In this document: piece after piece, positions 19,845-20,233 of the stretch | Position numbering within the stretch: position 1 is the first letter of the stretch | Layout: each line of letters starts with the position of its first letter | Origin: Candidatus Gastranaerophilales bacterium | GTDB taxonomy: Bacteria > Cyanobacteriota > Vampirovibrionia > Gastranaerophilales > Gastranaerophilaceae | Assembly (NCBI GenBank): GCA_947624975.1 | Contig: CANQMP010000019.1 | Coordinates: 1 to 35,847 of the forward strand | DNA length: 35,847 nt | Reading direction: 5' to 3' | Position numbers and translations under genes: made by a program | The notes under the pieces: model-generated | Seen by the model: only the letters and a program-made list of their open reading frames with translations | The model's database searches: none | Told to the model about the DNA's origin: nothing

Positions 19845-19859
19845 AATTTTTCCCTTTCA

Positions 19860-19974
19860 TAGACTTACCTTCACAGTTAGAAGGCAGTATCTTAACTATT
19901 ACACCGCTTATCGGACTAACGTTGCCACTCGGGAGAATTTGTCCCCTTGGCTTGCCCCGACAGTTCGGAACTGT
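19860..19974 (-). promoter_or_regulatory. Structured 5' leader of rpsH (candidate regulatory RNA)
   Basis: Reading the transcript from about 19974: hairpin ACAGTT-ccg-AACTGT (19960-19974); long pair CGGG...CCCG (closing near 19930-19956); hairpin GCGGTGT-N10-ATACTGC (19884-19907) with loop AATAGTTAAG; hairpin CCTTC-TAACTGT-GAAGG (19868-19884). The two last loops contain AGTTA and TAACT, which can kiss. TAACTGT can also pair with the first ACAGTT, giving an alternative fold. GC content is well above the surrounding spacer. It could be an r-protein autoregulation site (S8) or an unrecognised riboswitch; no known class fits fully. Confidence 0.5.
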
Positions 19975-19980
19975 ATCTCT

Positions 19981-20009
19981 ATACTATATTAAATAAATTT
20001 TAAAATCAA
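19981..20009 (-). promoter_or_regulatory. Promoter of the rpsH-rplF-rplR transcript
   Basis: Minus strand TTGATT (20004-20009), 17-bp spacer, TAGTAT (19981-19986). The start would be near 19974, at the first base of the leader hairpin. Confidence 0.65.
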
Positions 20010-20033
20010 GAGTAATGTAAATTTTCTGCAATA

Positions 20034-20058
20034 AAAACAGTCCGTTTAGGGCTGTTTT
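20034..20058 (-). terminator. Terminator hairpin, proximal of three after rpsN
   Basis: AAAACAGTCC / GGGCTGTTTT, ten pairs with one G-U, loop of five. On the minus strand it ends in CTGTTTTT. Confidence 0.7.
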
Positions 20059-20087
20059 GTCAAAATCTTTTTTCATTAAGGTAAAAA

Positions 20088-20135
20088 AATTCCGGTAAGT
20101 AATCCTCATTCGGCGTTTTAGTGCCTTACCGAATT
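20088..20135. other. Large hairpin in the rpsN-rpsH gap
   Basis: AATTC-c-GGTAAG (20088-20099) pairs with CTTACCGAATT (20125-20135) around a 25-base loop; one bulged C. It lies between two terminators. Role unknown. Confidence 0.45.
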
Positions 20136-20150
20136 AGTATTGGTAAACTG

Positions 20151-20176
20151 AAAAAGACCCCTAATGAGGTCTTTTT
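20151..20176 (-). terminator. Terminator after rpsN
   Basis: AAAAAGACC / GGTCTTTTT with an eight-base loop (20151-20176), extended by further T on the right and preceded by A on the left; works in both directions. It lies 58 bases past the rpsN stop. Confidence 0.8.
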
Positions 20177-20233
20177 TTATAATATTACACAAAGTACTTT
20201 GTAAATTAATACAAAAACCTCAGCGTATAGAGC

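Follow-up and report, generated by a model that had tools for sequence, protein, structure and literature searches.

A predicted S8 leader with two helix-21-like sites between rpsN and rpsH in Gastranaerophilales

Gastranaerophilales are non-photosynthetic gut relatives of cyanobacteria, and in the 1.9-Mb genome of one of them the ribosomal protein genes rpsN (S14) and rpsH (S8) stand far apart, which raises the question of what the space between them does. The window analysed here, a stretch of 35,847 nt (contig CANQMP010000019.1), carries on its minus strand the genes for L14, L24, L5, S14, S8, L6 and L18, in that order. Among these, rpsN (20440–20234; S14 type Z, NCBIfam NF005974) is the last gene of an upstream unit, and rpsH (19844–19446; NCBIfam NF001109) is the first gene of a putative regulated unit that also includes rplF and rplR downstream (L6 and L18, 18391–19398, minus strand). 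The rpsN–rpsH gap measures 389 nt (19845–20233, minus strand). In E. coli it is 33 nt, and the median over 61 diverse bacterial loci is 27 nt, which agrees with the original prediction that most bacteria leave a few dozen bases at this boundary. The GC-rich leader claimed at the same time is equally apparent, with 47.5% GC; the remainder of the gap has 29% and the window as a whole 36%. The S8 protein encoded here shares 58% identity with its E. coli counterpart and retains the STSKG motif, whose serines touch A642 of the rRNA in solved complexes (PMC4176348). A DnaJ-like gene and a HipB-type HTH gene are located downstream of L18 (16209–17509); since dnaJ is found divergently upstream of rpsH at a related locus (L032), the neighbourhood has been rearranged.

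The arrangement of signals in the gap suggests that the upstream spc transcript terminates there and that a new one begins, probably at about position 19975. An intrinsic terminator on the minus strand, usable on both strands, lies behind rpsN (AGACCUCAUUAGGGGUCU followed by a U-tract, 20149–20172, −9.0 kcal/mol), and a possible second one, read from the sequence, follows at 20030–20058 on the same strand (ACAGCCCUAAACGGACUGU with UUUUUAUU). Two terminators had been claimed: the former is well founded, as a fold-based scan of 31 related loci detected an equivalent of −8 kcal/mol or lower in 25 gaps but in only 1% of shuffled ones, while the latter is weaker and contains one mismatch. Both gap terminators were overlooked by a generic consensus terminator scan, and it was the fold-based scan that recovered gap terminators. 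At loci whose leader holds two S8-like sites in tandem the terminator behind rpsN was present in every case tested (25/25), compared with none of six single-site loci. The predicted promoter, TTGATT-17-TAGTAT (19981–20009, minus strand; −35 at 20009–20004, −10 at 19986–19981), is weak judged alone, yet its position is conserved. Measured from the ACAGUU motif at the 5′ end of the leader, 45 of 60 related pseudoknot-type leaders have TTG at −35 and 36 have TGNTANNNT at −15, and this constant offset indicates that the promoter keeps a set position relative to the leader. Furthermore, rpsH heads the operon at two loci where either a divergent dnaJ (L032) or an unrelated gene (L038) stands ahead of the leader. 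The distribution of terminators, the promoter and these two contexts together suggest that the tandem leader heads its own operon and that the single-site form is intercistronic. A split of the spc operon between S14 and S8, as originally proposed, is thus supported by the terminator, promoter and regulatory leader found in the gap. As a separate observation, a near-identical terminator, AAAGGACCGAGGGATGCGGTCTTTTTTTGGTTT, stands behind rpsN in a dozen species (L003, L005, L006, L009–L013, L016, L018, L020, L023) whose gap lengths vary widely; it may represent a spreading or selected terminator unit.

The rpsH leader RNA would extend over about 130 nt (19845–19975, minus strand), and its 3′ hairpin (AGAUACUGCC..GGUAAGUCU, 19892–19861) copies the S8-binding core of 16S helix 21. 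The S8 recognition core comprises A642, the (G597-C643)-U641 triple and the A595-(A596-U644) triple (PMC4176348). This predicted proximal S8 site, or site 2 (AGAUACUGCCUUC-UAACUGU-GAAGGUAAGUCU, 19861–19892, minus strand), has equivalents of A642, C643-G597, U644-A596, A595 and G645.U594, which is the full core sequence, and the base triples of the core may well form in the leader sites too. Leaders of the genus read GGAUACUG / UAAGUCC and the window carries the variant AGAUACUG / UAAGUCU; helix 21 of a congener (L172) reads UUAAGUCUGG..CUGGAUACUGG and matches the genus-leader core, GGAUACUG being identical in the two, and the E. coli helix reads UUAAGUCAGA..UCUGAUACUGG. The mimic differs from helix 21 in that the order of the strands is swapped and the mRNA loop closes the opposite helix end. 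In two genomes, the 16S helix 21 is unlike that of relatives (L175 in G008, L176 in G077), and these genes probably come from another organism and were binned into the MAG. Among relatives, A-U stands at 640-598 of the proximal site in 78 of 78 cases, with U or A at 641. In the window the proximal hairpin is preformed according to nearest-neighbour folding, with pair probabilities of 0.77–0.999, and a Shine-Dalgarno sequence, AAGGG (19852–19856, minus strand), read from the sequence, begins 5 nt 3′ of it. The distance from the end of the site to the ATG is 7–27 nt, within occlusion range of the ribosome-binding site, and in many relatives GGAGG immediately adjoins the site. A pairing of AUACUGCC with upstream GGGGCAAG was considered and rejected, as relatives show its partner to be GGUAAGU in its own hairpin.

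It might be objected that such a hairpin resembles helix 21 by chance and that the region is merely a promoter with its 5′ UTR, a reading with which the mildly stable single-sequence fold (z-score −1.66) would agree. With a z-score of this size, the structure has to rest on comparative evidence, and that evidence in practice refutes chance similarity, to which we give hardly any credence: of 99 loci, 57 have a strict-descriptor match upstream of rpsH, where shuffled sequences gave 1.4 on average, and the pairs covary beyond a tree-based null. Alignment A1, built from 28 tandem leaders, has 97.5% of its cells paired, and both sides change in 14 of 31 pairs compared with 2–5 in slid controls, in a sample whose descriptor selection presupposes some pairs and, in the genus set, dropped truncated or single-site loci only. 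Under the tree-based null, custom-written in the manner of R-scape and applied to 60 leaders, four pairs of the proposed helices reached E<0.05, namely 28-38 (P3), 11-58 and 18-52 (site 1) and 82-94 (site 2); the pairs ranked next also fall, for the most part, within proposed helices. The covariation check suggested for the proposed stems has therefore been run, and the stems covary. A relaxed descriptor run over both strands of the window gave a single match, the proximal site, and none in 67 diverse bacterial loci; in 7.5 kb of E. coli its sole match on the operon strand was the known operator at the rplE start.

How far this element extends was assessed with rpsH loci collected from the genus, family, order and class, with later additions from CM matches. 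One recurring element was found upstream of rpsH in this set: counting descriptor and CM matches together, it lies ahead of rpsH in 47 of the 50 family genomes for which upstream sequence was available, in 1 of 20 from other families of the order and in 0 of 16 from the rest of the class. CM R1 matches the window at 19975–19858 with 82 bits and nowhere else in the window or the rest of the genome, and it was found in 96 of 239 family genomes, covering 17 of 41 genera, with one match per genome (one MAG has two fragments). These CM counts are lower bounds, because large searches used stricter filters, which miss weak matches such as the window's own site. In every locus fetched, barring one short contig end, rpsH comes next after the match. 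The single-site model, CM R2, was found through the family and in one sister-family genome, and CM searches of the rest of the phylum returned nothing credible; matches in four larger genomes (E 0.01–0.07) were taken as chance, 292 genomes having been searched. The S8 tree has too few columns to order gains and losses. Both the gap and the leader persist in close relatives, and the original view that the gap houses a regulatory RNA gains support from a covarying leader conserved among them.

A structured, conserved 5′ UTR might equally be expected of a riboswitch or another small-molecule leader. An Rfam scan at gathering score and at a relaxed E-value yielded nothing credible for the leader, the link to rpsH is strict, and the core is the rRNA site of S8, so that the small-molecule ligand once contemplated is not needed and we regard this explanation as very improbable. 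We consider it highly probable, on the comparative evidence, that the element is an autogenous S8 (uS8) leader through which S8 would repress translation of rpsH and the downstream genes by ribosome occlusion. S8 in excess of free 16S rRNA would bind and lock the proximal hairpin, 30S loading at rpsH would then be blocked and less S8 made, and the lowered translation of rpsH would reduce L6, L18 and later genes through coupling. The hairpin has no U-tract behind it, which suggests that translational occlusion is a better fit than attenuation.

Upstream of the proximal hairpin, descriptor match and covariation point to a second, distal S8-like site, or site 1 (19904–19968, minus strand), formed by CCGAACUGUCGG (19968–19957) with CCGAUAAGCGG (19914–19904). 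It encloses an apical domain (19915–19956, minus strand) with hairpin P3 (GCC..GGC), a conserved GGCAAnnUUA and covarying P3 pairs. Nearest-neighbour folding disfavours the distal site of the window (pair probability about 0.01, other pairings being preferred); the probability of its upper stem exceeds 0.5 in 50 of 61 relatives. At the equivalent of 594.645, distal sites show GU in 82 cases, AC in 20, GC in 8 and AU in 1, and the isosteric swap of G.U for A.C is as expected if helix-21 geometry is what is kept. The same replacement by A.C is seen in the divergent single sites of L043, L144 and L152 (ACUAAACUACAAG..CUUGCAAGUAG). Insertions have enlarged the distal apical domain in L116, L033, L112, L257 and L258 (site loop 84–108 nt), where both core strands are retained.

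The 5′ end of the leader carries ACAGUU (19969–19974, minus strand), and the loop of the proximal site carries AACUGU (19873–19878, minus strand). ACAGUU and the loop AACUG are both present in 57 leaders and both absent in 17, the sole discordant leader being out of register. The two strands likely form a pseudoknot that joins the leader 5′ end to the proximal-site loop; only two well-supported independent pairs on the S8 tree bear on it, which leaves it likely, short of proven. The pairing of ACAGTT with TAACTGT that had been noticed at the outset thus gains support from co-occurrence, now as a pseudoknot. The other proposed contact, kissing between AGTTA and TAACT loops, was rejected: the segments exist in the window, but the linker varies in relatives (AGUAA, AGAUA, AGUAG) whose loop keeps UAACU. 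As to mutually exclusive folds, the RNA might act as a conformational switch in which ACAGUU pairs with either the site-1 core (the AACUGU hairpin) or the site-2 loop, the choice being made by S8 or by co-transcriptional timing. Both pairings are possible in the window, and the free-RNA model there does not favour site 1. Comparison offers the claim no support, however, as the ACAGUU..AACUGU hairpin is degraded in most relatives (ACAGUUCCAGACUGC) and the pseudoknot partner is retained; moreover, a complement to CAGU is to be expected regardless, ACUG being part of the S8 core. We therefore think a switch unlikely.

Within the preferred explanation, S8 autoregulation, it has to be asked whether one site or both bind the protein. 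That only one does, the other (most likely the distal) being a scaffold or non-binding and the pseudoknot positioning the proximal hairpin, is a reading that we hold to be well possible, if short of probable. It draws on the contrast between the proximal site, strict at 640-598 and 641, and the distal one, which is looser: here the 641 equivalent is A, G or U, often G, where the 16S genes read U, and 640-598 takes three pair types. Against it, the distal core, ACU with AAG, is invariant in 28 of 28 aligned tandem leaders, and it is the sole survivor, the proximal hairpin core having been lost, in L261, L264 and L265, with 29 distal-only rows. This retention suggests that the distal site can bind S8 and that each site can probably serve as an operator. 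In these three and in L276 the proximal hairpin is in place without an S8 core and the distal site is intact, a natural decay of one of two operators. The distal site and the pseudoknot would probably contribute extra affinity or cooperativity, either through a second bound S8 or through a more stable fold. More tentatively, we propose a two-site S8 sensor in which both helix-21 mimics bind S8 cooperatively and are coupled by the pseudoknot; it may have an origin separate from that of the E. coli operator, the permuted helix-21 fold having evolved a second time, with an intercistronic single site arising before the head of a split operon.

In E. coli, the S8 operator lies in the spc mRNA at the rplE initiation region (reviewed in PMC10931766; structure in PMC4176348) and reads GCGAAACUGCAUGA..UCAUGCAAGUC at the rplE start. 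Like the leader, it presents a helix-21 core (AxACUG / CAAGU) on the mRNA of the S8-encoding operon, with the AxACU strand 5′ and the AAG strand 3′, an order that agrees with A+80-(A+81-U+11) of the E. coli operator (PMC4176348). On the other hand, the E. coli operator is one site overlapping the rplE start within a continuous operon, whereas the Gastranaerophilales leader stands before rpsH, is preceded by a terminator and by its own promoter, and combines two tandem sites with a probable pseudoknot. A descriptor able to find the E. coli operator detected no such site near rplE on either strand of the window; applied to sister families, the class outgroup and diverse bacteria, it matched L142 only, and there before rpsH, not near rplE. 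The leader is thus predicted to work like the E. coli operator and to differ from it in arrangement. The original suggestion that S8 acts here through a site other than that of E. coli accordingly applies to its position, before rpsH instead of rplE; the RNA motif itself, a helix-21 mimic, does not differ, and its strands come in the order seen in E. coli.

Leaders that mimic rRNA for S15, L20 and S4 (PMC7247131) are likewise lineage-confined, covarying 5′ UTRs upstream of the gene of their ligand; the present one differs in its predicted ligand, S8, and in its tandem sites. As with other r-leaders, a conserved covarying structure is found consistently upstream of an r-protein gene, here rpsH, and, as with the known S8 operator, S8 is encoded on the leader's mRNA, with rpsH as the first gene. 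None of the 20 leaders tabulated in a 2020 survey of r-leaders has S8 as its ligand, and no new S8 leader was reported there (PMC7247131). A 2024 review describes spc regulation as unknown in B. subtilis and in species beyond E. coli and, presumably, Vibrio, and its phylogenetic study as not advanced (PMC10931766). A literature search, with most subscription journals outside its coverage, returned no paper on an S8 leader or an rpsH leader. S8 control of this kind would thus have been known previously only from relatives of E. coli, and the leader appears to be a variant of the S8 operator, which provides a concrete, testable candidate from another phylum. The permuted rRNA mimic recurs here at a different gene boundary, one-site and two-site forms have turned over within a single family, and the split of the operon accompanies the tandem form. 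The single, tandem, distal-only and proximal-only leaders of these bacteria make up a natural series in which the evolution of rRNA mimicry may be studied.
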